From Centroberyx gerrardi (taxonomy: Eukaryota; Chordata; Actinopteri; Beryciformes; Berycidae): a stretch of 64,000 nt of DNA. This document shows positions 1 through 17,463 of the stretch, piece by piece (position 1 is the stretch's first letter; the number at the start of each line of letters is the position of its first letter). A program made the translations under genes and the position numbers. A model generated the notes under the pieces. The model searched no databases, had not been told where the DNA came from, and worked only from the letters and a program-made list of their open reading frames with translations. Location: contig NC_136019.1 in NCBI RefSeq assembly GCF_048128805.1, forward strand, positions 16,247,881 to 16,311,880. The letters are read 5' to 3'.

Positions 1-895
1 GAAGGTGGCTCAATGGGTCGGTGGCTTGCGTGGGATCCCACTATTTTATCACAACTTAGCAAGGCTCATCAAGCTGTTCCCTGCCATCCTCACCAGCAAG
101 TGAGTATACTGAACATAATGTGTGCATTTAACAAACTTGAAAGTAGTCACTCAAATCAACCTCAACATAGTGATTGTGACTCTACTTACAGGCGTGGTGT
201 GGATAGGAATGTTGTGCGCCTTCTGAGGGACTGGACTGAAGGGAACACTATGGTCAAGGTGTGGCGGCAGATACAGGAGAATCACGTTGAGTACCTTCAA
301 CGTAAGGACCTGTACACCACACTCCTCATGACTGTAGCGGAACCCGGAGGGATTGTCTCTGCATTTAGACACACATTCCAGGCTCCACCTCCTCCAAGAG
401 AGCTTCCCTCCGCGCTGCTCTTGCGCCACGCCTTCCTGCTGGCAGAGGCCAACAATGTGCAGGATTACCGGAGCCGGATCCTCTCCACTTTTGGCACTGT
501 GCTGAAAATGGATTCCACCAAGAAAGTATGTAAATCAAAACATAATGCCATACTGTATGATGCAAAACATATTGCAGTATTGTTTTGTTTTTATTCAGTT
601 TTAAATTGAACAAATTTTCACACTGTTGTAAAATGATTAAGAAAAATCACATATCAATAGAATCTAACAGAGGTTATCACATTATGCAAACTTGACATAT
701 TTTTTAGGTGGTGAAGAAGCTGTCCAGGGAGGGTCAAGGCTCAGCTGAGTGGTTCACCAGCATCGGAAACGAGCACTCCCAAATAGTTTCATTTGTGCTG
801 ACCTGTGAGGAGTCCGCTAAGAAGCTGGAACCGATGTGCCATGGAGTCATGGAAAGGTTCCGGCTGGCCAATCAACCTGTCCCCAAAATCTTATA
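1..895 (+). pseudogene. Inverted partial copy of the DUF6729-type gene (exons 5-7)
   Basis: Three exons are readable on the plus strand: the 3' part of one ending at 99 (donor at 100), a complete one at 192-525 (acceptor ending at 191, donor GTATGT), and the start of another from 708. Outer exons match the minus-strand gene closely: the segment from 708 (VVKKLSREGQG) differs from its partner at 4,975-4,790 by about three residues in 62, and the intron before it also matches. The middle exon, with RRGVDRNVVRLLRDW near its start, has no counterpart left in the other copy. Homology stops at about 895, where the opposite copy's 3' end begins, so the two copies lie tail to tail. It is cut by the window edge on the left and truncated on the right, so it is a fragment and not a working gene. 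Confidence 0.75.
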
Positions 896-939
896 TGGAT
901 GCCATATTTATACAATATACCATATACCATATTTCCCTT

Positions 940-1632
940 TAACACCTTTGTCCCTGCCGTGCTGGGTGTGGGCACATATTCCATCAGGGGGTAGTCTGGT
1001 GGAGGGAGGACTGCTGGCTGGTGTGGTGCTGGAGGTAGGTCTGCAGATGAGTTGGAGGTGGTCTTTGTGATGGTGGATGGCTGTTTTGTGGCGTGCATGT
1101 TGAGGAGCCTCTCTTGGCGACGGATGAAGTCCCGCACAGTCTTGATGTTAATTTTTGGTAGAGGAATGCCTGCTTTGCGCAGGACTGGATCCTCCACCAA
1201 AATCCGGTGCTGGATTCGCTCGTACGCCTTCAAGATGGTGCTCTTCTCAGGACTGCTGCGAGACCCTTGAGGTGAGCGCAACCACAACAGTTTCACCAGT
1301 GTGTACATCAGCCTGTTGTGCTGAGCACTGATGTCCTGTTGTGCTGGTGCATAGCGCTTGGCCATCTTTACCCTCTGTATCACAGCAGCATCAACAAGAT
1401 CATCCCTTTTTATGCGGCAGTAGAGGGTGTTGCCCCAGTGTGTTCTGTACAGCTGGTTGAACTGCTGCGGCTGCTTGTCATGCTCCTCCACTGCATTCCA
1501 GACTTCGAGGACCTTCCTCTGCTCAGTGGTAAGTGACAGCTTGTCCTCTGTCAGGCCAATCTCCACCAGCACAGAGCAGAACATTTCCAACTTTTGAAAG
1601 CCAGGAAGAGGGTTTGGACTGCAGGCATCCTC
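940..1632 (-). pseudogene. Exon 10 of the DUF6729-type gene, 3' truncated
   Basis: The acceptor TTTTTAACAG precedes EDACSPNPLPGFQKLEMFCS. The exon runs through an alpha-helical stretch (EQRKVLEVWNAVEEHDKQPQ, RVKMAKRYAPAQQDISAQHN) and a Pro/Thr/Ser-rich tail. Around 940 the family-like sequence gives way to an AT-rich run and then to the opposite-strand copy, so the true 3' end is lost. No stop codon, poly(A) signal or terminal repeat for the gene is recognisable here. Antisense frames in this block are shadows. Confidence 0.55.
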
Positions 1633-1730
1633 CTGTTAAAAAATTGCCATACGAATGCGGTAAGTTCAAATGCGTACATTGTCCAGCAACCAGTGCATTG
1701 TATTTCATTCTAGCAGACACAGTTACTCAC

Positions 1731-2242
1731 AAAGGCCGGAGGGTGAACAGTGGAGGTTTTGTCGCTGGTGAGCGTAATGTGGGGCAGGACGGCATCCAGC
1801 ACATCGTCATGTGCCTCCACGTCGCTCTGGTACGCCTCGTCTGCCTCTGGATCTGGATCGGGCTGCCCAGGCTGAACCACCTCCTCCTCTGGACCAGGTC
1901 CATCGTTGACAATGTCCTGAAGAGAGAAGGGTCCAGATTCACCCGTGCTCTGGCTGAACAGGTACTCCAACCCGAGCAGCTCGTTGGAAGGGACATCAGC
2001 AGGGGCCAGGAAATTCTCCTCCACAGTCTCTCCGAACAGCTGCCGACAGCGGGTGTTGAGGCGGTCAATCAGCGGTGCCGAGTAGGTCCTGTGGTGCCGT
2101 CCTTTGCCACCAAACACGGCATCCGAGCTCCTGTCTGAGTTCCACTGTGCAATGCCACTTATCAGGTAAACCTGATAGGGCCATGCTGCACAGTGGGGAC
2201 CTGAGTAGAGTAAAGCTTTAATGTCCTCGAGGGGCAATTTGG
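1731..2242 (-). pseudogene. Exon 9 of the DUF6729-type gene
   Basis: The acceptor TGTTTGCAAG precedes KLPLEDIKALLYSGPHCAAW. The exon continues with YQVYLISGIAQWNSDRSSDA, a Tyr/Ser block (RHHRTYSAPLIDRLNTRCRQ), and NELLGLEYLFSQSTGE. It ends in an acidic Pro/Glu/Asp tail before a GTGAGT donor (1730-1725). The block AYL-x-G-x-x-RWN-x-DR followed by G-x-x-LGxEYL is what I recall for this position in the family. The frame is open over all 512 bases. Confidence 0.6.
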
Positions 2243-2402
2243 CTTGCAAACAGCAGTAGAAATGGTATCCATACAATATATACATACAATATAGACATAC
2301 ACACAAGACATAAACACAAGTACACAGTTAGCGCCAACATCACTGTTGTCGTTGTCACTTGTCACCAGAACCATCAGAAGAGGCAGCAAGAATGAAAGAA
2401 AG

Positions 2403-2703
2403 ATGGGGGGAACCGTATCACATCCACAGATAGTCACAGTCCCAATTTGTTTAAAAAACCAATAGCTGATGGAATAAAATACCTCATATATCTGTTAGTG
2501 TTACCTCTAGGGTGGTAAAACCTCCGCCTTGAGGGGAGCAAATTAAACTCACTGTGTAAAGGGTGCTGGGAGTCCAATAAGATGACCTGAGCTTTCTGTG
2601 TGGCTCTGACTTGGTACAGGTGGCAAAGATCATTTAAATTTACACCAGTAACTTTACGGTACACATTCACAATTTTTCCCAGCAAGTTTTTGTTGAACAT
2701 CAC
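2403..2703 (-). mobile_element. LINE 3' fragment: end of a reverse transcriptase ORF
   Basis: An 89-codon minus-strand frame holds NLLGKIVNVYRKVTGVNLND, LLPSRRRFYHPRGNTNRYMR and SFIP-like YFIPSAIGFLNKL before a stop. This is the usual C-terminus of fish CR1/L2/Rex-type LINE polyproteins (LLPSGRRFR..TNRYKxSFIPxAI in related elements). It begins abruptly near 2,703, as expected for a 5'-truncated LINE copy. It sits in the intron between exons 8 and 9 of the broken DUF6729-type gene, in the same direction. Subfamily is not assigned. Confidence 0.6.
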
Positions 2704-2776
2704 AATAAAAGGTATTAGAATAATGACAGGGTCACATGTTTAATTTGTTACAAGTATACAGACTACACTTGTGTAC

Positions 2777-4239
2777 CTAGAATCATGTAGAGCTTTGTGG
2801 AATCCTTCCAGGCTGTTGCTTCCACGCAGGCATTTGTAGTAGGGCACATCCACATTGTTGACGGTTGTGGTACGTGCCACCCTATACATGTTCATGTCTG
2901 GTGGATCCTGGATGCACTCCTGGGGCCTATACTACGAAGCAAGTTCAACAAAGTCAGGGTATGTTTGAGTTAGCCGGCTTCACTAAACCTAACATTGGCG
3001 ATCCAGATAACCGGTCTCACGTAGCTGGATATCAACTGGCTCTGTCAACCCAGGATTTACCTATCCAGCTATGAGCGCATTCACATGAAAGAGGCGGGGT
3101 TTGTAACAAATAGCCAATCACTTGCAACATGGACAGATCCAGATCAGACAATTCGGATAAGATAAGATGAAACTACTGATCCCCGTGGGGAAATTAGATA
3201 GTTGTGCAGCAAAAGTAATATGATTCAGTGGGGAAAAGGACATAGAATATAAGCGCAAAACTATAAAAATAACTAATAGCCTAAAAATAGGCGAAAATAA
3301 TAAAATAGGCTAATCAAACAATAAAAGCCATAAGCAATAGACCTAATTATAAGATGATATAAGCCCTAATATTTCCTGCTGACATTTTCAACATGGGTAT
3401 CGGAAAGAAATGGATAGCTACTAACATTGGGTTCTTCTCTCAAGAAGAACAAATTCTTATAATGAATAACTGTCAGCATTACAAAACATAACCGCGAAAA
3501 GTAAAAGTTGTTTCTGCTTCCAAGGCTAGAGAGGACTACTGGAGGAACTGCCCCGTCATTAGGACACAGTGGGCATATTTTTCATTGATAAAATATTTTG
3601 TGGACACATTGAGGCTGTAAAAAGATTTTCTATTCATAAAGTCGGTCTCTTGTTCTTCAGGGCTGCGGTAATGGAATATGAATAGCCGACATTGAACCAA
3701 ACACTGTTGGAAATCCAATTAAATAAAGTCAGCGCAATTAATATATGCAACAGTAACTTTAATCCATTAATAATATGGTCAATTAAGTAGCCTACCTGCT
3801 ATATCTCCGATATAATACGTTATCATGGAAAACAACGTGATTCTACTGGTCTGTAAACACGTCGCCCTGCGAACAGCACTTCTTACTGTCTGTTAATTCA
3901 AAAATAACAGGTTTCAGTTTTTTACTGGGATTTTCATTTGTATATTTGTTCATATCGGGATCCTGTAGGAATGGTGACTCCCTGTTTCCAGAGAGCTGAT
4001 TGGTCAGAAGGCGGCCTTTCATACGTTTTGATCCGATACCCTGAACTTAACCTGCTCCGGAGCAGGTTAGCCGTGCAGCATAAGTTACCATGGTGATCTA
4101 CCCCGGTTAAAAGTGAACCACCTTCGTGAGACGGAAAAGCCAGGGTTAAACCTGAAGTTACCTCGCTAACCCCAAATCCTGCTTCGTAGTATAGGCCCCA
4201 GGTGTCGCTGCTGGCCTGCCCACATCTCATCAATGGCCT
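2777..4239 (-). pseudogene. Exon 8 of the DUF6729-type gene, split by an inverted-repeat element
   Basis: The acceptor TATTTACAG ends at 4240. The first 40 bases encode EAIDEMWAGQQRHL. The reading then resumes at 2,920 with ECIQDPPDMNMYRVARTTTV and VPYYKCLRGSNSLEGFHKAL, ending at a GTACAC donor (2,776). The 1.28-kb element at 2921-4199 sits between the Leu and Glu codons, and skipping it keeps the frame. CIQDPP and the RGS-SLE-FH motif are the best conserved marks of the family as I remember it. The Glu in SLEGFH is the candidate third acidic residue. Confidence 0.65.
2921..4199. mobile_element. Non-autonomous DNA element with GGGGCCTATACTACGAAGC ends
   Basis: The first 20 bases (TGGGGCCTATACTACGAAGC) recur inverted at the right end (GCTTCGTAGTATAGGCCCC), giving a nearly perfect terminal inverted repeat. 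No open frame of note lies inside. An internal piece near 3,160-3,210 (ATCCCCGTGGGGAAATTAGA) looks like a second, older repeat. The element interrupts exon 8 of the DUF6729-type gene, between Leu and Glu codons. I could not see a target-site duplication longer than one base. The palindromic ends suggest the PIF/Harbinger or ISL2EU groups, but that is a guess. Confidence 0.65.
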
Positions 4240-4324
4240 CTGTAAATACACATACATAAATACATACATACAGTGTGTTATGTTCACTTTGTATGCTACA
4301 CTAGCCGTATCGATGTTGTAATAA

Positions 4325-4975
4325 CTTTTTTGTATGAGATCTTTTATACCAAGTGTTTTGAAGAGGCTCACTCCACTCTCGTCCAGCCCAGGGGGGACCC
4401 TTCAGCTCCTCAATGGCCAGGTGGATGAGCCGGAATGTTTCCTGAGCCCCGAGTGTGACCCTCCGCACATGGTGTTTGAGCTGCTCCCTGGAAATGTAGT
4501 GGCGGACAACATCCTCATCTGAGACAGACTTCAGCGTTGCCGGGTCCTTGGCTCTGACGGCCTTGATGAGCAGTTCCAGGTCTGTGCGGTTGTAGACCAG
4601 CACTGCCCCAGCTAGAGCAGACTTGAACACAGCGTACTTGGAGTGAGACTCTGTGCGTATGGCTGTGTCAAACCGGTGGATCCAGTGGAAGATGTCCAGA
4701 CGCACAACCATCCCATTGTCCACCCAAGGCTGGAACAAAGTCTCCAACGCTGTTGGGCCCTGCGCACGGCAACACTCACGGTCCATGTATAAGATTTTGG
4801 GGACAGGTTGATTGGCCAGCCGGAACCTTTCCATGACTCCACGGCACATCGGTTCCAGCTTCTTAGCAGACTCCTCACAGGTCAGCACAAATGAAACTAT
4901 TTGGGAGTGCTCGTTTCCGATGCTGGTGAACCACTCAGCTGAGGCTTGACCCTCCCCAGACAGCTTCTTCACCAC
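4325..4975 (-). pseudogene. Exon 7 of the DUF6729-type gene, putative catalytic core
   Basis: Begins after a TTTTTTAG acceptor with VVKKLSGEGQASAEW. It carries MDRECCRAQG followed about 25 residues on by MVVRLDIFHWIHRFD, then RTESHSKYAVFKSALAG and a helical C-terminal part ending in EELKG. The acidic residue spacing and the LDxFH motif recall DDE transposases of the KDZ and MULE kinds; this is inference from the motif only. Near 4,390 the reading frame shifts by one base in a run of six C, and GLDESGVSLFKTLGIKDLIQ continues in the new frame up to a donor-like GT near 4,325. Confidence 0.65.
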
Positions 4976-5174
4976 CTAAAAAATGTCATGTTTGCATGTG
5001 ATAACCTCTGTTAAATTCTATTGATATGTGATTTTTCTTAATCATTTTACAACAGTGTGAAAATTTGTTCAATTTAAAACTGAATAAAAACAAAACAATA
5101 CTGCAATATATGGTTTAACGCGCTTCAACCAACTCACAAGAAATAGTAGGCCTGTCCGGTGCTCTCAGAGCAAT

Positions 5175-5210
5175 CTTGTATCAGGAGAGACTTGTGTCTT
5201 CATCAGATTC
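5175..5210 (-). ncRNA. Hammerhead-ribozyme-like remnant at the PLE1 3' end
   Basis: Read on the minus strand the segment gives CTGATGA followed by a short AGAC-ACAA-GTCT hairpin, the arrangement of the first core strand and stem II of a hammerhead. The following GAAA core strand is not present (CTCCTG instead), so it should not cleave. Penelope-like elements are known to carry minimal hammerheads in their terminal regions; the identification rests on position and the first half of the core. Confidence 0.35.
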
Positions 5211-5239
5211 AAACAGTACAAAGGCTTGTATTCTCTTAA

Positions 5240-5890
5240 ATAACCTCCCCTAATTAGGGACTAATCCAGCACAGGCTGGAAGAATGGGGTGGGGACAACA
5301 AGCTGCATGCAGGGTTCCCAACTATGCAACAAAAAAGAGCAGTAAATACATAAATAGATACATAAATATGATATTTCATCAGTAACCACATCCAATAAAC
5401 TGTGTCAAGATATCAGTAACCATAATAAATAACTTGTATCGAAACGATATATATTAGTCCATTCAATATCTTAAACAAACCTCCCCTCATCAGAAATTAC
5501 TACAGCATAGGCTGGAAGAGGGAGAAAAAGGGGAGGGGACAATAAACTGCATGAAAACAAGGTTCTCTCTTATGCAGTATTAAAAAGAGAAAAGAGAAAG
5601 TAAATATGAAAAAAAAAAGAAAATATCTATTCATAACATTACAACAGTAACCACAGACTGCAACAACAATAAATAGCCTGCATCAAAACGATGCATCTTA
5701 GCCCACTGAATATCAAAACCAACACTCTCCTAATAAAGAATTACTACAGCATAGGCTGGAAAAGTGAAGAGGGGTCAGTAGGCTGCATGTAAATAGGGTT
5801 CTTGATTATTAAATAATAAAGAAAAGGAGACATAAAAGATACATGACCTTACATCCACCCATAAACTAACCACGCATCGTATTGTATCAG
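5240..5890 (-). repeat. About 240-bp tandem repeats in the PLE1 3' region
   Basis: Three diverged copies start near 5,246, 5,480 and 5,724, spaced 234 and 244 bases. Each contains CTCCC/TCTCC, then AATTACTACAGCATAGGCTG or a close variant, a GCTGCATG block, an A-rich run and a GTATC..ACGAT segment. They lie between the endonuclease end and the 3' terminus of the element. Confidence 0.7.
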
Positions 5891-5959
5891 TAATTATCAT
5901 ATATAGCCTGTCTCAAGCAGTATGGCTACATAAAAAACAACAAGTAGGGCTTGGCTCAA

Positions 5960-8325
5960 GGCTATAAAAAAACAAGTAAGGCTTAGCTCCTCATTAAGTC
6001 CTGATGGTTCAACAGTGTTAAGTTCAGTGATCCAGAAAGCTTCTCTGCATAGCAATTTATTAATAATATCTCCACCTCTAGGGGATGGTGTAATATTTTC
6101 GATCCCCCAGAATTTAAGAGAAGCAGGAGAGCCATGATTAAATTGAATATAATGGTGTGCGATTGCATAGTCCATATTTTTAGTGCGGATAGCAGTCTTG
6201 TGTTCAGCTATTCTTTGTTTTAGAGGGCGTTTAGTTTGACCAACATAGACTTGCCCGCATGGACATTTCAAAATATATATGACGTGTAGAATTACAATTT
6301 ATGAAAGATTTGATGTTACATTTTTTACCCGTACGGGGATGAGAAAAATATTTAGTTTCACTTGAATTAGAGCAGTGAACACAGTTACCGCATCTATAGA
6401 ACCCTAGAGGTGGGTTTGGTAACCAAGTGGTTCGAGGGGAGGAGGACTGGATCATGCTGTGTACTATTCTGTCTCTTATGGAGCGAGACCTTTTAAAAGT
6501 GATAAGGGGAGGTTCTGAACAAATATCTTTCATGGCAGGGTCTGTTTTTAAAACGTGCCAGTGTTTTAATATTGTGTTTCTGATCTCGCCTGCCGTAGGA
6601 GAAAATTCTGTAGAGAAGCAGAGTCGAGAGGAGGGCTCACGTGGCTTTTTAACCAATAGGCTAGATCTATTGGTACGTGTCGCCTTTTGGTAGGCTGAGT
6701 TAATGTCTAGGCCCAAATATCCTCTGCTGCGAAAGCGTTCTTTCATTTCTATGGATTTCATTTCAAATTCTGCCTCTGTTTTACAGTTTCTGCGAAGGCG
6801 TAGAAATTGACCCACTGGTATGTTCTGAATCAATCTTCTAGGGTGATTGCTATCCGCTCTAAGAAGCGTATTTCTACTGAGGGGTTTTCTGTAGATCGTT
6901 GAGCATAATGTATTATCGCTGCCCTTATATATGGTGAGATCCAAAAAATTTATTTTAACAAAATCAAATTCTGAAGTGAAAGAAAGCAATGTCGAAGTAG
7001 AATTAATGTACTCTATGAAGGCATTAAGCTCATTTAAGGTACCATTCCATACCATGAATATATCATCAATATACCTCCGCCACAGAGAGATCTTTGAGTG
7101 GAAGGGGTTAGAAGAGGCATTATAGATGAACTTCTCTTCCCAAAAGCCCATAACTAAACAGGCATAGGATGGCGAGAAGGAACTGCCCATACTCACGCCC
7201 TGGCTCTGAAGAGCCAGCATACTGAAAGAAGTTCTTAGATAAATTAATTCAGTAAGTGTCAATAAAAATTAATTAGGGAAAAAATCAACATATTGAGATA
7301 AAGGTTCGGTTAGGCAACCAATACTTGAAACAATAGGACGAAGAGGGGGATTCACTAGGGATTTATGTATTTTGGGTAGGCCGTAAAATACAGAGCATAT
7401 AGGATACTTAACTGTTAAAAATTATTTCTCTTTGTCAGTAATCCAACCTCTTGAGAACGCCATTTCTATATATGTGTCATTTTCTTCTTTAATGCATTCA
7501 GTAGGATTAGAATTAAGGGGGGTATAATTATCTCTGTCTGTGAGTAGTGATCTAATTCCTTTATCATATTGTTCATGGCTTATCACAACAGTGGAACCCC
7601 CTTTGTCCGCAGGGCGGATGATAATATCCGTTCTACTTTCCAAGTTTTGTAAAGCTTTGAGTTCATTTTTAGAAAGATTATTTTTGTAGGGAACTCTTTT
7701 CTTACAAATCTTATCAAATTCTTTTTCCAAAAGGTTATTATAGGTGACAATAGCTGGATTAAGGTTAGAAGAAGGTAGAAACCTAGATTTCTTTTTGAAT
7801 GGTGTAGCTTCTCTATTATCTACTTGTATACTCACAGTTTCCGTGTTTCTACTCAATATATTTCCATTAGTGAGGACATTGGATCTGGGAGAGAAGAAAT
7901 GTTTGAGATGTAAAGATCTGATGAACTTGAAACAGTCCACTTTCAATTTAAACAGATCCACAGAACTTGTAGGGGAGAAAGAGAGACCTTTATTGAGTAC
8001 ATGTGTTTCAGCTTGGTTTAGATTTTGACCCGATATATTGATCACCGTCTGTTCATGTTGTGTTGCGAGTGGCGAGGTAGCTCTGCTTGGGGGGTTCCTC
8101 CTCTGCCCCCTTGTGCCCCTCCTCGTCTTCTTTGACGAGGGAGAGCGTTGGCCAAAAAAGACTGTGGGATTCTCCGTTGGTTTTTGGCCTCACTTCCCTC
8201 TGACGTATCCATCTCGCTGTCGGTAGAAAATCTGGTAGCACCTGTTGCTTTAAAGCGTGTAGGTCGGCGTGGTCGACATGAATATCTCTGTTCCCCATTC
8301 CAGTCATACACCACTCCTTCAGCAT
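5960..8325 (-). pseudogene. PLE1 reverse transcriptase/GIY-YIG endonuclease, decayed
   Basis: Segments in order on the minus strand: an N-terminal region (8045-7422) with IIRPADKGGSTVVISHEQYD; a stop-broken stretch near 7,420-7,262 that still reads FYGLPKIHKSLVNPPLRPIV, the Penelope RT signature; then 7262-6290 with GVSMGSSFSPSYACLVMGFW and RRYIDDIFMVW, the catalytic YxDD box. A one-base shift near 6,290 leads into CPCGQVYVGQTKRPLKQRIA, the GIY-YIG domain, and GIENITPSPRGGDIINKL, ending close to 5,960. Such enzymes prime reverse transcription at a nick made by their own endonuclease. At least one stop and two frameshifts are visible, so no active protein is expected. An upstream basic frame (8325-8042) may be the 5' part. 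Confidence 0.75.
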
Positions 8326-8348
8326 AGTATTATGTTCAGTATACTCAC

Positions 8349-8537
8349 TTGCTGGTGAGGATGGCAGGGAACAGCTTGATGAGCCTTGCTAAGTTGTGAT
8401 AAAATAGTGGGATCCCACGCAAGCCACCGACCCATTGAGCCACCTTCTCCGCTCCTGGCTGCCTTGAGGCACTGTCCACAGCACAGGACCTCCGTCAGCA
8501 TGGCATACCAACCAGATACATCACTGATGTGACGTAC
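8349..8537 (-). pseudogene. Exon 5 of the DUF6729-type gene, Cys-rich end of the domain
   Basis: Starts after CCCCACAG at 8538 with VRHISDVSGWYAMLTEVLCC and continues through GQC, matching the second half of the putative zinc-ribbon-like part of DUF6729. It ends with PCHPHQQ before a GTGAGT donor at 8348-8343. Its 3' half is nearly identical to bases 1-99 of the opposite strand. Eighteen bases past the donor the homology between the two copies stops, where the 3.2-kb Penelope-like element begins. Confidence 0.65.
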
Positions 8538-8682
8538 CTGTGGGGAAAAAATCAAATCAAATAAAGGCCAATAGCAGCATATGACTTTCTGTGCTCTTTT
8601 TTTTTTCTTGCATGTTTACATACATAGTAATAAATATTCAACTGTAATGTAATAACTCTAACACAGGTGAAGTGAGTTATAC

Positions 8683-9370
8683 CCGGTGGTGGTAGCCAGA
8701 CTTGTAGAAGTGCACATTCCGTCCTCTACCCACACACTCATCACCTCGAGGACACTTCAGGGAGTACCTCCACACAGGGTGCCACACAAAGACGCGGCTC
8801 CGAAAAAAGAGTTGTGGAGTTGGCAGAGCACCCCTGACATAGCCGGGAGGTTCTGGTGGGTAAAACCACATGCGGTCTTATTTCATCACCCGTCGCCTCT
8901 TGAACAGACCAGTGTTGTCCTTGTAGATTTGAACGGGGGTGAACAGCCCTCTTTCTGTGTCCTCTTTGAGCCAGGAAATGTCGGCAGATGGGATGCCATT
9001 GGGGTTTTCCCACGGACGCACCCAACCCTCTAGCTCCACCTGCAAAACACATAATGCATACAAAACATTTGGTTATTATTGTGTACAAAGTAATGTTAAA
9101 ACATAAAACCAATTTAAAAAACATGTAAAACAAATTGTTCTCATTTACATTGTTTGCATATAATGTGAATATCACTTACAGGGGAGTCACTCAGAGGTGA
9201 TTCCACGGGATAATCATGACCCTTGGTTGTGGACGGGGACTCTGTGGGCTGGCTAGTGGACACATGCTGCTTGGGCTGGACAGCGGCCTCAGGCTGTTTT
9301 GGCCGGACAGTACACTCAGGCTCATCTGCACGCTTGTGATGTGGGTCACCAGGGTAGCAGAGCACAGGAG
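8683..9370 (-). pseudogene. Exons 3-4 of the DUF6729-type gene, with the DUF6729 core
   Basis: Exon 3 (about 9370-9180) is a low-complexity Pro/Ser/Gln stretch with PESPL-like acidic-proline runs, cut at its 5' side by the Penelope-like fragment. Exon 4 (9039-8683) opens with VELEGWVRPWENPNGIP and carries WFYPPEPPGYVRGALPTP, FFRSRVFVWHPVWRYSLKC, PRGDECVG and FYKSGYHHR. The WFYPP start, the FFR-x-R-F-x-W middle and the Cys residues are the features I connect with DUF6729. An in-frame TAA lies at about 8,880, directly before the WFYPP block; it would truncate the product. Acceptor (TTTTGCAG) and donor (GTATAA) are both present. Confidence 0.6.
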
Positions 9371-9652
9371 CTGCATCCGTACCCAGGACCAACGTAACCC
9401 GGTGGCAGTGCATTTCAGAGAGGCAAATCACCCAGTGGCCTCTCTCAGATACATTGGCATCGAGCATGTTAGAACTCCGAGAAGAGGAGGCGATTTAAAT
9501 ACCCTCTTACTCTAAAGAGAAAGTTTTTCATTTTCACTCTCCAGACTCTGGAGGCTCTAGAGGTCTGAATCAAGAGTATGAGATCAAACATTTTCTCTAA
9601 AATAAAAAATAAAAATGGTGGTAGTATCATGATGGCTCTCCCTACATATATA

Positions 9653-10343
9653 CCGTATTTCCTCTAATAGTGGCCTGGGCCTTTATTTACCTCAACTGCA
9701 GAGGGTACCAGGCCTTTATTGGAAGCAGGCTTATATTAGAGACAGGCCTTTATTTCTAATTCCCTCTGTTTGATAAGTATATTTGCTCATATTTTAGTAC
9801 GAAGCCTCCTTGTTTTCTGATCTGCTTCTGTTGGGGTACGTTAGGTAGATGTTTTTTTGTTACTGCAATGCATTATGATAATTACGGTAATCGACGACGG
9901 CATGCTCCAGAGACTTCCGCCGGCCGAGCCATCTTGTGGCACTTGTACGTTACTACAAACTACAGTTACAAACAGGCACCAGGAGTTTACCGGTATCCAC
10001 CGTTGTTTGCATGTAAGCTGAAGCTAGCTGAAGCTAACTGAAGCTAACTGAACCTGGGCGCCGATGTGTTCCCGGTGATCCGGCCGAGATTTCGGCGGCG
10101 GTCCGGGGCTTGGATCGGGAGGATCAATGCGGGCCGTGGGCGCGGTGGAGAGGACAGCGGCGAAGAGAGGAGACGGACACGGTGCAGCCATATACTAGGT
10201 TTTGACCTAGTCTTGTTTCCTTTGTTTTTTCCTGCGGCCTGTATTTGAGACCGGCCTTTATTTGTTCGTGTCGACGACGGCCCCGGCCGTTATCGGAGAC
10301 CCGGCTTTTAATTGACTACAGGCCACTATTACAGGAAATACGG
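9653..10343. mobile_element. 0.69-kb MITE with CCGTATTTCC ends and TA flanks
   Basis: The left end reads CCGTATTTCCTCTAATAGTG and the right end is its inverse with one mismatch over about 24 bases. Both ends are bordered by TA (9651-9652 and 10344-10345), the target used by Tc1/mariner-like elements. Left arm: two further near-repeats of AGGCCTTTATT; right arm: GGCCTTTATTTG in the same sense. The centre (10,060-10,170) is markedly GC-rich with a 60-codon frame that I do not regard as a gene. A four-fold AGCTAACTGA-type repeat lies at 10,018-10,050. Confidence 0.75.
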
Positions 10344-10863
10344 TAGGTATTTCTCTAGACCCTGACACACATATCTGTAAAAATGTTTAATTAAACAACA
10401 GGTGTGTCTTTTTTCCTTGTGTGTTTTTTTCCTTTCTTTCCTTATTGTGATTTATTCCTTATTGTGATTTGATCTAGCTGACTTTTTATAGAAAAGTGTT
10501 AAAACCCAATTTCTTACATGAATTTAAGATTTCTTCTTTTCCCCTAACTTAATACAATATTTTTGAACGTAGGTGATGTAGATTTTGATATATGGGATGT
10601 TGTATCTGATATTATGTTTATGCTTATATATAAGATATACATGTATGTTTGATATTTTTGAAGTATGGCTTTTGTACTACTGTTTTTTTTTCTCTATGTA
10701 TCTGTTTTCTATGTACTTTATTGAATTGTTAATTATTTTTGGATGTTTATCACCCTGGGCGGTTTGGATGGTTAACCACACCTGCCATCATAGAGCTTGT
10801 CAGCCTATGGGTGTGCATGATGTATAAATATGGGTGTGGTTTCCATTTTTCAAATATTTTGAC

Positions 10864-10897
10864 CTGACGAAGATCCAAGTAGGATCTAAACGTTGTC
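10864..10897 (+). ncRNA. Degenerate minimal hammerhead ribozyme of PLE2
   Basis: CTGACGA (10,864-10,870) matches the CUGANGA core. It is followed by GATCC/GGATC (10,872-10,876 and 10,882-10,886), a perfect five-pair stem II with a short loop, then TAAAC and GTTGTC, the usual place of GAAAC and the GUC cleavage triplet with a tiny stem III. The G of GAAA is T here, which is expected to destroy activity. Known for Penelope-like elements as a class; the folding is my own reading. Confidence 0.55.
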
Positions 10898-10915
10898 ACT
10901 ATTAAACTTTTGTGT

Positions 10916-12116
10916 CATGGAGCAAGTGTGCAGGCGTTACTCCTTCTTTCACTGGTGTGTTCAACCACCTCCTCACAGAACTGTTTGCCTTCTTTATTAT
11001 CTCCTGTTACGGCCGTAACCGTACCCCCCCCAGAAGATTCCCTAGTGTTTCCTTGTGTTTCCCCTTCCCTGTGTTCCAAGTGCTCCCCTGTCTCTCTCTC
11101 TCTGTCTATGTTTTGTTTGTGTGTGTATTGGCGTGGGCGTGGTCTCCCTTCCTCGTTCTCCTGGCTCCCGGCTCTGCTCATCCTGCACACCTGTCACAAT
11201 CTGCTCCTCAGTTTCCCTTGTCAACCACTCTTTCATCCCTAGCCCTCCACATTGCTCTCGGTCCCTGTCTCCAGCCCCTGCTCACTTCTCCCAGGCCATG
11301 TTCTTTCCTTCAACTCCCCAATCCTGCCATCCTCTAGCCGTCCACCAGATGTCCTCGGACTTTCCCTCCTTTCCTCATCACCTGACTGCCCCACCCATCC
11401 ACACACCTGTTCCCACTTCTCATCAGCCCTGCAGTCACCTGAGCTTTCCCTCCCATCTCCCCACCTGCACCTCATTCCCTAATCAGCCTTCACTACATAT
11501 ACCAGTTCACTTCCTTTGTTCCCTGCTAGATCGTTACGTCAAGTTGCCGTGTGCTTCATGTCTTGCTCTCTAGCTTCTGTATCTTGTTCTTCTGTTGTCC
11601 CTGAGACCTGTTACCTGCCGGTTTTGGACCTTTCCCGTGTATTGGACTTTTTGATTCTTGCCTGCCCCTTGTCGGATTTGTTTGCCAGTTTGGACTGCCT
11701 TCTCTGGTTCTGACCCTTGCCTGCCTCACCATCCCATAAGCCTTTGTACCTCGTTGTGTTAATAAAATCACTGAACTGTATCAGCTCTGCCTCAGGCATC
11801 TGCATTTGGGTCCTATCCCCTGTGTTCCTGCTATCCTGCAAGCACCAGCCGTGACATCTCCCTCTGCTCATCACTGAATTGCTCTGGCCTGTCCTTTTAG
11901 GTGTGGTACTGGCTGTAGAGTTCCCACATCTCTTGAAAGGTGTGATCCTCAAACCCTCTCTGACCGTAGATACACCTGTCGATGTTGGCTTCAAGGAGAC
12001 TGGAGACTTGTGGGAAGCTTTCTGCATATTCTGTGAGGTAGTCTTTCACCCACTGGTTCACAATCTCTCCCTTTCTATGTGGGTTTGTCACCTCTGATCT
12101 GTGCTTGTCAAGCACG
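10916..12116 (-). pseudogene. Exon 2 of the DUF6729-type gene, split by a solo LTR
   Basis: The acceptor CCAG ends at 12117. The exon encodes RVLDKHRSEVTNPHRKGEIV and continues through SFPQVSSLLEANIDRCIYGQ to MWELYSQYHT, where an in-frame TAA appears. Past that stop the frame stays open to the LTR at 11,856, and resumes beyond the LTR at 11,004 with IIKKANSSVRRWLNTPVKEG when the LTR and one target-site copy are skipped. It then meets the Penelope-like 3' end near 10,915. I infer that both the LTR and the retroelement landed in this exon. Confidence 0.5.
11005..11856 (+). mobile_element. Solo LTR, probably Gypsy-type, with 5-bp target duplication
   Basis: Begins TGTTACGGCC and ends GCCGTGACA, so the termini are TG...CA. 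It is flanked by TCTCC on both sides (11,000-11,004 and 11,857-11,861), a perfect 5-bp duplication. Inside are a CT-rich region, a TATATA-like stretch near 11,494, and AATAAA at 11,761-11,766 about 90 bases from the end, as expected for promoter and poly(A) signals. The GTTTGGGTCCTA-like end is typical of fish Gypsy LTRs. No internal gag or pol is present, so the provirus was lost by LTR recombination. Frames found inside are fortuitous. Confidence 0.85.
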
Positions 12117-12333
12117 CTGGAATCATATACGTCAACTTAGTACCGTCATCATTAATATCACTGCAATTGTGATAATGAGTAAAGAAACTTTGCAAAGATG
12201 AATAATAAACACTGATAATAGCCATAGTTTTGTGCAAACAGATATACAGGTAATTTATTTTAAGCATGCCATCAAAATGGTATTTAAAATGCATACCCTA
12301 CAATGGTATTAAATATAATATGCTTACTACTTC

Positions 12334-12629
12334 ATGTAGCCCACATCGTTTGCCACAAGCCAGTGGAATGGTGCATTCTCATACTGGCCAAATGGCACCA
12401 CCAGCTTTCCCAGGCACAGCTGACGCGACGGCGCGGGGATACCCTCTGCTCGAAGGAGCTTCTCTGCGTGGGCCAGGGCAGTGGCCTGGTTGAGCAGCTC
12501 TTGTGGAGGTTTGGGGAAGACCATCCTTTTATCCCGATAGTAACGGGCCACTTTGGTCGCCATCAGTACGGCCTGTTGACGATTTGCAGGGGCATCTGGC
12601 TTGACGACGCGGATTACTGGGGTCGCCAT
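12334..12629 (-). pseudogene. Exon 1 of the DUF6729-type gene, ExoX C-terminal-like end
   Basis: Begins MATPVIRVVKPDAPANRQQ and keeps an open frame for about 98 codons. It ends in VPFGQYENAPFHWLVANDVG, which resembles the short C-terminal domain of exonuclease X and related proteins (G-Y/K-x-G-x-x-F-x-W-L-x-x-N-D-x-G-Y). A donor-like GTAGTA follows the last codon. The first ATG is the only good start in the frame; upstream is AT-rich. The resemblance is by eye and needs a profile search. If real, the module would be a short DNA- or protein-binding patch rather than a nuclease, because no exonuclease core is visible here. Confidence 0.5.
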
Positions 12630-12639
12630 CTTCAGTTGT

Positions 12640-13930
12640 AGCTACTGAAATACACTTAGATACAGTAACGCCACCACAACAGCAACAACAACAATATCAT
12701 TATTATTATATTATAATAATATATGAATTACTAATATAACAATGAACGTTAGTGTACAACAGGGCATTGATACACTTTTAGCACACAGCGAGGAAGAGGA
12801 GGAAGTGTCAGAGCAGGGTGACAACTGCTAAACCCTGATTACAGCTCCTCAGATGAAGATGAAGAGAACTCTGAGGGAGAGTTTTCATAACTCCTGGGCC
12901 TACAAGACTGACTCTTTCCCATGCATCTGACATTTTATCCACTTTTCAACTTTTCTTCCCTTTGGCTAAGTTTTAGGTTTTTGCTTATGGCAAAACTCCA
13001 AGAGTGTGCATGCCATCTTTACACTCAAAATCAGTTGAAATACTTTGCCCCAAAAGTTGCCAGAAAAAAACATCAGGAATATGGAACTCTTATTATGGAT
13101 TATGGAACTCTTATTATTCCTTGGAATAATAAGGAATATGGAACTCTTATTATTCCTTGGAATTATTCTTATTATTCCTTGGAATAATAAGACTTCCATA
13201 TTCCATATACCCCTATACCATATTCCATATACCCCTGCCATAGCCATAGCCTGGGAGGCAGCGCTGCCTTACAGATAACATTGGAGGCAAAAAACACACT
13301 GAGAGAAATCACTGTAGTTGTTATATTCTCCTGTCTTGGACAATATAGGCCATGGTATTTTGTGCTAGTGGGTGTTTTTTGACAGCAGGGAAAAATGATA
13401 AAAAACGAATGGTAAATCAATACAGTCTCCCTGACCTCTGAAACACTGAATAAGAGTTAATTACCTATTTATTAATGAGTGATGGGTTGTTTTTGGAGTT
13501 CAAGATTTGGTATGGTAACGTATAGGTCAAGGTAAACTTTATTATCTCAGATAGGGAAATTCGGGTGGTCAAGGTGCAGAAGTAGGCCTACAGTATAGAG
13601 ATTAATAACAAGGCAATGTTTAGGCTAAAAAAGACCCGGGTGTCGTTGCACACCTAAAACCGCCAACGGGTAAAATTGACCCGTGCACGTAGCCTCTGCA
13701 TTCTTTCACTGTATTAAGGCAATGTTTTCACGAATACATGTCTAAAGTCACAAAATTAGTATGTTTAATCATCACCTGTGTTTTTGTCCTGGACGCCCTC
13801 ACTTTTCCCGGAGGTTGATCGCTGTCAGATGACCCGTCAGAGGAGTCAACCCATGACACGTCGCTCAGTCCTGATACCTCTCCACCATCAGACTCTCCAT
13901 CACTCTGCCTGTGTGGCATCCATGAATCTC
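12640..13930. other. AT-rich stretch with acidic coding remnants, unassigned
   Basis: The segment at about 12,780-12,880 encodes SEEEEEVSEQGDN-like acidic sequence and SSDEDEENSEGE in different plus frames. The segment 13,919-13,728 (minus) encodes DGESDGGEVSGLSDVSWVDS and SSDSDQPPGK. Such acidic starts are common in piggyBac-like transposases, and GGGTAAAATTGACCCG (13,668-13,683) recalls piggyBac-type ends, but no catalytic domain is present. I cannot assign it. Confidence 0.25.
13074..13240. repeat. Palindromic AT-rich repeat cluster
   Basis: GGAATATGGAACTCTTATTA and variants recur at about 13,075, 13,098 and 13,134. Between them CTTATTATTCC is followed by TTGG and GGAATAATAAG-like inverse copies, giving nearly perfect palindromes around 13,118 and 13,178. 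The right side carries a doublet CCATATACCCCT. No gene is visible. Confidence 0.6.
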
Positions 13931-14200
13931 TTTCTTTTGTCCATATTGACTTTAAACGCGCAAAATTAATTGTGCAAAAATAGCCATATTCTATAGCGGG
14001 TAAATTTTATACGCTGGCGATTATAGAATGCCCATTTTTTAAATCTGTTTTTATCTTTACTGTTTTTAACAATAGGGGATGCTACATAACACAATTTTAG
14101 GACAAGTCAAAGACTGGGGTACTTACCCTGTGGCGGTTCTAGTGTTTAAAGAACTCCGATTTCGAGCTTTGCTGTTGTTTTGCTGCTACGCTAAATTCAG

Positions 14201-14208
14201 ATTTGCAT
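14201..14208 (+). promoter_or_regulatory. Octamer ATTTGCAT, possible snRNA distal element
   Basis: A perfect octamer lies upstream of the CCAAT-containing satellite and the U1 pseudogene. Octamers are the typical distal sequence element of vertebrate snRNA genes about 220 bases from the start. Here the spacing to the pseudogene is larger because of the satellite. I found no exact octamer at the matching place upstream of the complete U1 gene. Confidence 0.35.
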
Positions 14209-14298
14209 ATCGACGTGTGATTGTTTGTCTACAGTCGAGACATATGATTGGTAGTCTACAGTCGAATTCTACGATCCAATTGGGAGTCTACAGTCAAA

Positions 14299-14586
14299 GT
14301 CTACAGTGAGTTAGACCAATCAGAACGCGTAACTGTCTACAGTGATTTAGACCAATCAGAACGCGTAACTGTCTACAGTGACTTAGACCAATCAGAACGC
14401 GTAACTGTCTACAGTGACTTAGACCAATCAGAACGCGTAACTGTCTACAGTGAGTTAGACCAATCAGAACGCGTAACTGTCTACAGTGACTTAGACCAAT
14501 CAGAACGCGTAACTGTCTACAGTGACTTAGACCAATCAGAACGCGTAACTGTCTACAGTGACTTAGACCAATCAGAACGCGTAACT
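14299..14586 (+). repeat. 36-bp satellite, eight near-identical copies
   Basis: Eight consecutive copies begin at 14,299, 14,335, 14,371, 14,407, 14,443, 14,479, 14,515 and 14,551. Each reads GTCTACAGTG-A-(C/G/T)-TTAGACC-AATCAG-AACGCGTAACT. Copies differ mainly at base 12. Each unit has a CCAAT box (GACCAATCAG) and an ACGCGT (MluI) palindrome. The array ends at GTCTACAGTCACTGTAGAC (14,587-14,605), an inverted repeat of its own first nine bases. Three diverged half-units (ATTGG, GTCTACAGTC) precede it from 14,220. Because 36 is a multiple of three it stays open as a 12-residue protein repeat, which I do not believe is translated. Confidence 0.95.
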
Positions 14587-14627
14587 GTCTACAGTCACTG
14601 TAGACTTTGCACTAGACTCGTTGTCTG

Positions 14628-14703
14628 CTGCGAATTCCCCAAATGTGGGAATCTCGACTGCATAATTTCTGGTAGTGGGGGACTGCGTTCGCGCTCTCCC
14701 CTG
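14628..14703 (+). pseudogene. U1 snRNA 3' half, truncated
   Basis: Seventy-six bases are identical to the 3' part of the complete U1 gene at 15,917-15,992, from CTGCGAATTCCCC through the Sm site AATTTCTGG and the last stem-loop (GGGGGACTGCGTTCGCGCTC). The 5' 88 nt, including the splice-site-pairing sequence and stem-loops I and II, are absent; the 36-bp satellite and a short unrelated linker stand in their place. A 3'-box-like TTCATGTGAAAAAAAAAA follows. It cannot make functional U1. Confidence 0.9.
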
Positions 14704-14849
14704 TATTCATGTGAAAAAAAAAAGTTAATTTCCAGCTGAGATCATTACTGCTCCATGGATGGTATGTTACCATGTACTTTTTAACTGTGGGACAGTGCCT
14801 ATACACTGACATTATTGCTTATAGCAAGTAGTGTTATGTTATACAAATA

Positions 14850-15104
14850 TACTGAATGTACAAAGTATTAGGAACATCTTCCTGATACTGAGTTGCAGCC
14901 CATTTTGCACAATCCACATCTCAATTATCCCAAAGCTTCAAAATCCTTCACTAACTCGTCTGCTTCTCTTTATCTACAGCTCCTCCTTTGTGATTGGTAG
15001 AGATTTAATAAGGATAATCAATAAGGGATAGTGGCTTCACCTCATGCTGTAGGCCTACTTCATGGAAAGGGTAAGTGGGTTTAATATTTTGTGCATTCAG
15101 TGTA
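14850..15104 (+). mobile_element. MITE with CACTGAATGTACAAAAT-type ends, copy 1
   Basis: The left end ACTGAATGTACAAAGTATTA is inverted at the right end (TAATATTTTGTGCATTCAGT). Internal landmarks are CATCTTCCTGATACTGAGTT, GATTGGTAGAGATTTAATAA and CAATAAGGGATAGTGGCTTC, which are the well-known blocks of a widespread fish non-autonomous Tc1-like repeat. It lies about 150 bases after the U1 pseudogene. Confidence 0.75.
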
Positions 15105-15828
15105 TATGCTATATGCTGTATATTTAATTGCAGGATAACCCCATTAATGACAGTGACCTTGAAGAATATACAGACTTATCCTTACAAAATATCACCTTAG
15201 TATTTGGACTTAATTGCTATTGGGACTTATAGTGTGTTTGTTGTGCTCAATAGTAAGTTTCTCTTCCTTTTAGATTTGTGTATCTGCTATATCACTATAG
15301 CAGTGGTGGACTCAGGCTGTTTGAAGGGCAGGGGTGAAAAAATAAAAAGGGCACCTACTGCACGACATGGGGCCCCACCAGCGCGCAAAAAGCTATGATG
15401 CATCATGTATGATGAAATAGTCTTCATCCTTGATTAAGATTAACATTATGTTATTAGGCGATCCAGATTATAACCACACCTCTATGATAAAAACACACAG
15501 GGAACTATAACTACATCTTAGAAGGTTACTTTACAACTTGAATATAGTCTATTATCGTGCAAAAAAATATCATGCCACAGAAAAGCATTAAGTAATAATG
15601 CTAAAATATTATAAATTATATAATTATAAATGCTATAATAGTAAAATACAATATCAAACCAAATAAAACGGACTTTGCTTTACATCTTAGTAATGCATGT
15701 AGTATATAAGCTTAATGATATTGTGACGGTACGTTGGTGTAAATATTGTGTGTCCAGTTAATTGCGGGCACCGTCCCGCAGACGTGCATGTGTCTGAATG
15801 ACCCCTCTGTGTCTGGCGTGTACAACTC
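15105..15828. other. Upstream region of the U1 gene, no gene seen
   Basis: AT-rich DNA without convincing frames. A 64-codon frame at 15,204-15,398 shows no family signature. The last 70 bases before the U1 start should hold the proximal sequence element; I could not identify a clear fish PSE by eye. A GCGGGCACCGTCCCGC inverted repeat lies at about 15,764-15,779, around 50-65 bases before the start. Confidence 0.4.
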
Positions 15829-15992
15829 ATACTTACCTGGCAGGGGAGATACCATGATCAAGAAGGTGGTTCACCCAGGGCGAGGCTCAGCCATTGCACT
15901 CCGGTTGTGCTGACCCCTGCGAATTCCCCAAATGTGGGAATCTCGACTGCATAATTTCTGGTAGTGGGGGACTGCGTTCGCGCTCTCCCCTG
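15829..15992 (+). ncRNA. rnu1: U1 spliceosomal snRNA, complete, 164 nt
   Basis: U1 recognises 5' splice sites in the U1 snRNP. The gene starts ATACTTACCTGGCAGGGGAG, with the ACTTACCTG that pairs to introns. Stem-loop I (GATCAAGAAGGTGGTTC) is the 70K-binding site, stem-loop II has the U1A loop ATTGCACTCC, and the Sm site is AATTTCTGG in place of the human AATTTGTGG. It ends GGGGGACTGCGTTCGCGCTC followed by TCCCCTG. The length is exactly the vertebrate 164 nt. All functional blocks are intact, so it could be active. Transcription would be by RNA polymerase II from snRNA-type elements. The sequence GCTCAGCCATTGCACTCCGG has small changes from human. A 3'-half copy lies 1.2 kb upstream. Confidence 0.95.
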
Positions 15993-16012
15993 ATTTCATG
16001 TGAAAGAAAAAC
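15993..16012 (+). terminator. 3' box of the U1 gene
   Basis: ATTTCATGTGAAAGAAAAAC directly follows the mature 3' end. It fits the loose snRNA 3'-box pattern GTTTN(0-3)AAARNNAGA that directs 3'-end formation through Integrator. The same segment follows the pseudogene in a more A-rich form. Confidence 0.55.
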
Positions 16013-16245
16013 ATAAAATGTTTAGCTGGATTGATCTAGTCTAATGGGATATAGTGTAATTACTGTATTTAGCGTTTTAATGCCCTGTTGAAGTTTTAGG
16101 GGTTCCTACAGTCAAAACACAGGGCAAATGTAATGTTTATATAGTATGTTATGATGATGCCAGAGAAAGAACTGTTGTTGAACAAAATCATTATATGATA
16201 CACAATAAGACAGCCATGCTTAGCCTACAGCAAATAGAAGCAAAC

Positions 16246-16437
16246 ACGTTGAATGTACAAAATACAAGGGACATCTTCCTGATACTGAGTTGCAGCCTGC
16301 TTCTCTTTCTCCTCCTTTGTGATTGGTATATTTAATAAGGGGAATCAATAAGGGATAATGGCTTTTACCGAGATTCACCTCATCAATGCAATTCATGAAA
16401 AGACTAAGTGTCCCTCATATTTTGTATGTTCAGTGTA
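16246..16437 (+). mobile_element. MITE with CACTGAATGTACAAAAT-type ends, copy 2
   Basis: TTGAATGTACAAAATACAAG at the left is inverted at the right (TTTTGTATGTTCAGTG). It shares CATCTTCCTGATACTGAGTT and AATCAATAAGGGATAATGGC with copy 1 but has its own internal deletion and insertion. It lies about 250 bases after the complete U1 gene, mirroring copy 1 after the U1 pseudogene. Confidence 0.75.
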
Positions 16438-16918
16438 CATGCTATAATGTTTATTTTTTATAATGACATTCTGGTACATACTGTATGTCAATGGATCGCA
16501 AACACAAATCTCTTCTGTCATGTGCTCACCACTTGGGGGAGCCATTCACCACTTACTGTCAAGCTTACCACAGTTAAGGTTTTGTATGTTCAGTCACAAG
16601 GCTTTGGCTACATACAGTTTGTATTCAACTACACATTCAAATCATAATCTGTCATACATAATTAAAACGTTTTATTTCCTAAAGGGATATTCCACAAAAC
16701 ACTGATGGCTGTTTCCATGGAAAAGGTGTGTAGCTTTGTGGCATTTGACAATTACAGTTATAATTTCTAAAAAGGTCAAGGGCTCAAGTAAAAAAGTTTT
16801 TTACTTGCCAGGTAGTCAGAGGCATGTTCAAAATCACAGGAATATTAGCACATTTTCAAATTAATTTAAGGGACTACTTTCCTTTGTTTGAACAGACAGG
16901 AGGAAAACCAGTTGGCAT

Positions 16919-16949
<31 letters not shown>

Positions 16950-17463
16950 CTTTGAACTGTGTGTACATTCGCATCGGTGTTGGCTGACTCTTGTTTTACT
17001 CACTCTTTTGCCAGGAACAATCTTACATAATCCTTTCCTGTCCCCCATTGTAGACTCAGAGTTTATTCTCACGACCATCCCTTTCTAATATAGGACACAA
17101 CTCAAGTTGATTCCAAAAACTTTATTTGTAAAAAGGAAATATACAAGGAATTGCAGTCACAGTCTGCAACAAAGCAGTATACAAAACTACACTACACAAA
17201 TAATTGTAGGTTTTTCTTAATATGTAAATGCGATAAGATATAATTGTGTTTAATGTCGATACAACCTTAGTGAGGTGTGATATTCTTAAATTTCCTGTAC
17301 ATCTTTTCTAATGTTTCATTCTGGAAATTAAAGGTTGGTTGTAGTTCAGATTAGATGTCTTGCTATGATTTTATTGACTTGAATGATTCTGCAATTCAAT
17401 GTTACATGTTGCTTTTTCACATTTATGATCATTCACATAAAAACACGTACTGTATATTTGACC
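16438..17463. other. Intergenic DNA with a TG microsatellite
   Basis: No gene seen. A TG run of about 28 bases lies at 16,922-16,949. Short frames here show no family signature. Confidence 0.5.

Follow-up and report, generated by a model that had tools for sequence, protein, structure and literature searches.

The question raised by this locus was whether a gene containing DUF6729, encoded on the minus strand of a stretch of the Centroberyx gerrardi genome, belongs to an undescribed transposon system, as an initial annotation had proposed. The stretch analysed (the window; 64,000 nucleotides, C23:16247881-16311880) comes from an assembly of 778.9 Mb in 278 contigs. We hold it to be nearly certain that the gene codes for a Dada-U1 transposase and so adds a member to a DNA transposon family already described, the assignment being made from published descriptions. 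Its layout matches the Dada superfamily, which Kojima & Jurka described in 2013 (PMC3706591), and a 2022 fish survey reports more than 120 Dada families in twelve target groups, including Dada-U1 (Kojima, PMC8869645).

The evidence was obtained from three intact sister copies of 10.6-10.7 kb, one at C23:4.50 Mb and two in tandem at C6:30.67 Mb, in which the exon stretches are open and the catalytic triad is present. All three sit in U1 small nuclear RNA (snRNA) genes at U1 position 91 and are bordered by GCGAAT. The C23 element was flanked by U1 1-96 and U1 87-164 with GCGAAT on both sides, and ten complete U1 genes were found in the 30 kb examined there, with array members spaced 847-874 bp apart. 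The C6 pair was arranged head to tail, with U1 1-96 on one side and U1 87-164 on the other; a single GCGAAT separates the two elements, and GCGAAT stands at all three borders. The distance between target site duplications was 10,708 bp at C23, and the period was 10,606 bp at C6. The sub-terminal sequences GTGCAA and TTGCAC lay exactly 19 nt from GCGAAT at each end of the intact elements, and the gap between TTGCAC and GCGAAT in U1 itself was also 19 nt; no terminal inverted repeat was seen when the element ends were compared by eye. This base-exact fit of both ends to U1 makes target recognition testable. The transposase would bind its own ends and the U1 gene through the common sub-terminal sequence, and would cut by D-D-E chemistry, inserting at U1 position 91 with a 6-bp stagger.

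In the 2013 description, Dada elements have introns, lengths of 4,666-10,979 bp, a D-D-E triad with a DxxH signature, CCCC and CCHC motifs, and 6-7 bp target duplications in multicopy small RNA genes, with terminal inverted repeats absent (PMC3706591). For Dada-U1, the same source describes duplication of the GCGAAT that follows CT in U1, tandem copies joined with no additional bases, and sub-terminal GTGCAAT/ATTGCAC at the distance found in U1. The zebrafish elements Dada-U1A_DR and Dada-U1B_DR share with the present family the target gene and base, the GCGAAT duplication, tandem copies with one GCGAAT, sub-terminal repeats of the GTGCAAT type, the lack of a terminal inverted repeat, a length of about 10-11 kb, introns, D-D-E with DxxH, and the CCCC and CCHC cysteines; they differ in the right repeat and in that the window copy is dead. 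Dada-U6, Dada-5S and the tRNA-targeting Dada groups belong to the same superfamily but have other targets. Judged from printed residue numbers, Dada-U6_DR has triad spacings of 68 and 176 residues compared with 69 and 195 here (protein P0001), and a CCHC motif of C-x2-C-x9-H-x8-C compared with C-x2-C-x6-H-x8-C; its CCCC residues are C389, C394, C429 and C432, compared with C107, C113, C150 and C153. That the gene represents an undescribed superfamily might be argued from the Pfam label of unknown function and from the word DUF6729, which occurred in no paper of the literature searched, although other wordings are possible; the link between DUF6729 and Dada is thus not in that literature in that word. 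Nevertheless, target, duplication, sub-terminal repeats, cysteine motifs, triad with DxxH, introns and length all match Dada, and the U1 junctions already refute a new superfamily, to which we assign almost no probability. KDZ/Zisupton, which had also been considered, was dropped after the U1 junctions were seen.

The Dada-U1 transposase is composed of an N-terminal part, a CCCC region corresponding to Pfam DUF6729, a D-D-E core of predicted RNase H fold in which a long helical insertion follows the DxxH signature, and a CCHC motif at the C-terminus. Its length is 967-1,455 amino acids in the six closest relatives listed. DUF6729 is the CCCC-bearing region of the Dada transposase. Hidden Markov model analysis bore out the DUF6729 region, as PF20499 matched the joined exons 4-5 of the window copy (copy A; E 1.7e-21) and the joined exons 5-7 of its inverted partial copy (copy B; E 4.4e-12), both above the gathering score. 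In an alignment of 90 proteins, the cysteines C107, C113, C150 and C153 were present in 81/81, 79/81, 83/83 and 83/83 ungapped rows, and the CCHC residues C1092, C1095, H1102 and C1111 in 68/72, 70/71, 69/72 and 66/71. The CCHC motif is kept in the C23 copy and missing from the truncated window copy. The RNase H fold obtained by structure prediction agrees with the mobile element with a D-D-E core that had been suspected. The proposed triad of MDREC, LDIFHW and SLEGFH was right for the D of MDREC and the E of SLEGFH, but the first D is that of LKMDSTKK; the triad thus consists of D302, D371 (in Y-[VM]-D-R-x-C-C) and E566 in P0001 numbering. The correction follows from conservation and from the structure model. 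The D of LDIFHW belongs to the DxxH signature (D400xxH403); unlike the triad positions, it was never replaced in 153 core-complete relatives.

Hermes and the P element transposase were among the structural matches, and fold and C/DxxH motif are common to MuDR, hAT, P and Kolobok, so membership in one of these superfamilies had to be weighed. The pieces scanned carry DUF6729 and not the Pfam domains of those families, none of which was found in the window pieces (E up to 1) or in six relatives including P0005 and P0076 (E up to 0.01). Together with the 6-bp duplication in U1, the Dada-U1 sub-terminal repeats and the lack of a visible terminal inverted repeat, this makes such an origin exceedingly improbable. 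A Harbinger-type domain occurred in two of the six relatives scanned, which are probably fusions. The bacterial IS256-type transposase ISCth4 (PDB 6xgx) shared 9% identity over aligned residues. In a sequence-profile search of PDB, the best match had an E of only 0.26.

Several observations weigh against the assignment to Dada-U1. The comparison with Dada-U1 was made by published description, and the right sub-terminal repeat reads TTTGCAC instead of the published ATTGCAC. The right junction of the window copy, the only end readable in the window, is altered, with 17 instead of 19 nt between TTGCAC and GCGAAT; its 3' terminus, which lies to the left of the window, is unaltered, with GCGAAT and 19 nt. 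At C6:28.73 Mb, a further, decayed copy has a recognisable 3' end that borders on sequence other than U1 and lacks GCGAAT; no 5' end was found for this copy, despite complete U1 genes on both sides. In other Dada groups, copies with foreign sequence at one end are described in PMC3706591. Foldseek alone returned no PDB match at E 0.001 or better.

The DUF6729 gene of copy A comprises about 10 exons, where at least 10 had been annotated, with coding pieces running from 12629 to about 934 (Table 1). SLEGFH and the 3' exons lie outside the annotated extent, 4325-12629, and the 5' end of the element, at about 14627, adjoins a U1 fragment; the 3' terminal piece lies left of the window, past the inverted copy. 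The motifs WFYPPEPP (DRMWFYPPEPPG, 8842-8877), MDREC, LDIFHW and SLEGFH were all present on the minus strand. By reading, probable exon 3 resembles VRPKQPE...TESPSTA...ESPLSDSP of relative P0002. A segment of exon 1 (FGQYENAPFHWLVANDVGYMK) had been called ExoX-C-like, but in the Pfam scan of the window copy, run to an E of 1, ExoX was not matched (two weak unrelated matches only), and among six scanned relatives ExoX-like_C appeared in Branchiostoma P0137 alone, at 26.1 bits, below the cut-off of 26.5.

Table 1. Coordinates of the window copy, its insertions and the U1 sequences (window positions unless a contig is named)
Feature	Position	Strand	Remark
Copy A, decayed Dada-U1 element	896..14627	-	aligned to intact copies C23:4500887-4511610 and C6:30665233-30686454
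Exon 1, ATG start, N-terminal part with ExoX-like_C-type motif FGQYENAPFHWLVANDVGYMK (12330-12392)	12330..12629	-	
Exon 2, shortened by inserted DNA, in-frame stop within 11891-11908	11852..12127	-	ends approximate
Probable exon 3, proline-rich linker	9180..9494	-	ends approximate; by reading
Exon 4, beginning of DUF6729, including WFYPPEPP and the first cysteine pair; in-frame stop within 8869-8889	8687..9039	-	
Exon 5, DUF6729 with second cysteine pair (CCGQC)	8338..8537	-	
Insert in place of exon 6, GIY-YIG and YIDD reverse-transcriptase-like frames	5110..8328	-	breakpoints by alignment
Exon 7, second catalytic D (ILYMDREC 4772-4795) and DxxH signature (RLDIFHW 4682-4702)	4395..4966	-	
Exon 8, first piece (EAIDEMWAGQQRH)	4198..4240	-	exon 8 undivided in intact copies
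Inserted element splitting exon 8, 26-bp inverted ends (96%)	2921..4197	.	breakpoints 2920/4198
Exon 8, second piece, ECIQDPPDMN and catalytic E (SLEGFH 2797-2814)	2767..2920	-	
Exon 9 (GPHCAAWPYQ ... TVHPPAF)	1731..2201	-	
Exon 10, truncated, C-terminal CCHC part missing	934..1632	-	
Copy B, partial duplicate in inverted orientation, comprising exon 6 with the end of exon 5 and the start of exon 7	1..895	+	cut at 895
U1 snRNA 3' fragment (U1 89-164), interrupted target, starts CTGCGAATTCCCC	14628..14703	+	
Complete U1 snRNA gene near element	15829..15992	+	Rfam RF00003, 169.4 bits, E 5.5e-44
Inverted U1 fragment inside intact elements	C23:4501489-4501569 (L037); C6:30665835-30665915; C6:30676441-30676521		

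Copy A is broken because exons 2 and 4 contain in-frame stops and exon 6 is absent, and it is a dead relic; the counterpart of exon 2 is open in the C23 and C6 copies. In the insert that replaced exon 6, GIY-YIG (PF01541) was matched at 5897-6298 with an E of 7.3e-06, and no Pfam reverse-transcriptase match was obtained for the other two frames. We take this insert to be a Penelope-like retroelement, both this label and that of reverse transcriptase being based on the motif YIDDIFMVW. After landing in a U1 gene, the window copy thus received two or more further insertions. A segment at 9646-10350, between exons 2 and 3, with 32-bp inverted ends (91%) is probably another inserted element. Just inside the 5' end of the element, a tandem repeat with a 36-bp unit was observed at 14299-14595, the sequence TAACTGTCTACAGT occurring eight times in the window copy and once in each intact copy.

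The second inverted copy that had been noticed nearby was found on the plus strand as the partial copy B, which extends left of the window to C23:16244075 and is 100% identical to copy A over 1-119 and 96.3% identical over 569-895. Within the window, exon 6 survives only in copy B, where LKMDSTKKV with the first catalytic D was located at 502-528. Copies A and B share the in-frame stop in exon 4, which in copy B lies to the left of the window, and copy B therefore looks like a duplicate that post-dates the onset of decay and not like an independent insertion; the 3' part of copy A is thus broken by a duplicate, in inverted orientation, of the 5' half of the element. The inverted piece as a whole, C23:16244002-16248775, consists of a U1 3' end and the 5' half of a Dada copy within the 3' part of copy A, and may have originated by one-ended transposition or by inverted duplication. 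No terminal inverted repeats bracketing the gene were found among the 14 repeat pairs of positions 1-17000, a range outside which the 3' end of copy A lies; the longest pair was copy B against copy A.

A search for copies in the genome, in which 40 of 347 candidates were scored so that all counts are lower bounds, revealed at least six close copies, two of them being the partial ones of the window complex. Outside the window, a tandem pair was located at C6:30.67 Mb and single copies at C23:4.50 Mb and at C6:28.73 Mb, the last being decayed; the exon matches of these copies were 64-92% identical to P0001. The two copies at C6:30.67 Mb were 100% identical over 10,616 bp, and the C23:4.50 Mb copy was 99.1-100% identical to them in long aligned pieces. 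With this genome, a further set of triad-complete Dada-U1 copies that moved or were duplicated recently becomes available, and one of these copies lies within an array of U1 genes. The intact elements also contain, in their 3' part, an inverted U1 fragment (84-164) beside a Dada-like end remnant, perhaps as the relic of an earlier insertion.

The same copies bear on the idea that a domesticated Dada-type protein is kept by fish as a host gene. A precedent exists in dDada of Cyprinoidei, derived from Dada-U6 and the one domestication reported in the 2022 survey (PMC8869645), and catalytic residues are lost in many annotated relatives. dDada belongs to the same protein family, but its catalytic residues and DxxH are altered and it forms a single conserved locus, whereas the present elements are multicopy and flanked by target sequence. 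The traits of dDada (single locus, mutated catalytic D, DxxQ) were not found here: exon 7 of the window copy keeps MDREC and LDIFHW, and the intact sisters keep the triad. With the stops and the lost exon 6 of the window copy, the identical tandem pair and the target duplications around three intact sisters, a host gene, single-copy or otherwise, is highly implausible for this locus, and the gene is further regarded as a Dada-U1 transposase.

Of 7,991 candidates scored in a protein search with the joined query, 81 reached an E of 0.01 or better, and those labelled by organism belong to fishes and one lancelet. When the distant relative P0076 served as the query, 376 matches were obtained, of which the best 120 were examined. 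Among the matches listed, most relatives carry PF20499 and are annotated as uncharacterized or hypothetical, with many paralogues in several species. The assignment links the DUF6729 domain of these fish proteins, and of some lancelet ones, to a transposase family that already has a name and whose target is known. More distant DUF6729 paralogues with 33-39% identity were present on C3, C4, C6, C9, C15 and C23 and may belong to the Dada-U6, Dada-5S or tRNA-targeting groups. An Rfam scan of four short distant-paralogue loci gave no RNA gene at the gathering threshold. In a further scan of 11 loci, four of them 10-kb paralogue loci, these four contained a U2 gene about 3 kb and a transfer RNA (tRNA) gene about 2.5 kb from the coding matches, without a junction. 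The tRNA was also called by ARAGORN, as tRNA-Gly, and locus L045 gave weak sub-threshold U6-like and microRNA-like matches. Two Dada-like loci near opposite ends of the 25-Mb contig C23, L026 (C23:920697-924479) and L027 (C23:24564846-24568628), were identical over 3,783 bp, which suggests recent movement or duplication; their target was not found. No insertion was seen in three complete U2 snRNA genes that lie within kilobases of Dada-type copies on C6, namely L047 (C6:28647838-28648028), L031 (C6:30660113-30660303) and L039 (C6:28721242-28721432).

Changes of the catalytic residues were analysed in 200 aligned relatives, 153 of them core-complete; 11 of these were gapped at a triad site, leaving 142 readable. 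The sample may be biased, since P0076, used as a query, has a changed triad of its own and contributed the best 120 of 376 matches, and the gene predictions were unchecked against DNA. D-D-E was intact in 104 of the 142 proteins, and at least one of D302, D371 and E566 was replaced in 38, by a non-acidic residue in 35 and only by D/E interchange in three. On a FastTree tree built without the triad columns, the three sites changed 16, 14 and 11 times (about 41 separate changes, mostly on separate terminal branches), compared with a mean of 1.36 and a maximum of 7 changes for 42 other columns at least 99% conserved in triad-intact proteins; D400 and D533 showed no change among the core-complete relatives, and conserved positions close to the catalytic residues mostly varied little. 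The near-invariant other columns were replaced in 44 of 1,587 cells (2.8%) in the 38 proteins and in 15 of 4,354 (0.3%) in the intact proteins that define those columns. The triad-changed proteins are thus somewhat decayed, but these columns are affected far less than the catalytic positions.

Four of the 38 (P0160, P0176, P0180 and P0188) group together, three of them with DxxQ, and may be dDada; 34 remain without them. DxxQ also occurred in P0012, P0152 and P0162. D371N is common to the pipefish proteins P0163, P0172 and P0179 (Entelurus, Nerophis), and such shared losses hint at lineages. In a small control set of 30 Harbinger/HARBI1 proteins, the positions taken as the triad were kept in 24/28, 27/29 and 28/29, so that loss there was not clearly more frequent than at the remaining conserved columns. 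As triad changes in Dada lie far above those of other conserved columns, dead Dada proteins may have been retained several times over, to bind or repress at snRNA and tRNA genes. That fish Dada transposases repeatedly lose catalysis, with most of the remaining protein preserved, is a tentative reading of the aligned proteins, which we consider rather doubtful and hold as a lead and not as a result. If true, it would make catalytic loss a repeated fate of Dada proteins, beyond the single dDada domestication; no other domestication was found in the literature searched. A Dada-like locus, L029 (C23:955443-959225), was 95% identical to the triad-intact L026 and L027 and reads ILKMNSTKK, the first D being replaced by N. 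Its ratio of nonsynonymous to synonymous differences (pN/pS) relative to these two, the one comparison of this kind that the genome allowed, was 0.77, with exon ends cut by motif that may include intron sequence; this value is nearer neutral and speaks against selective retention of L029.

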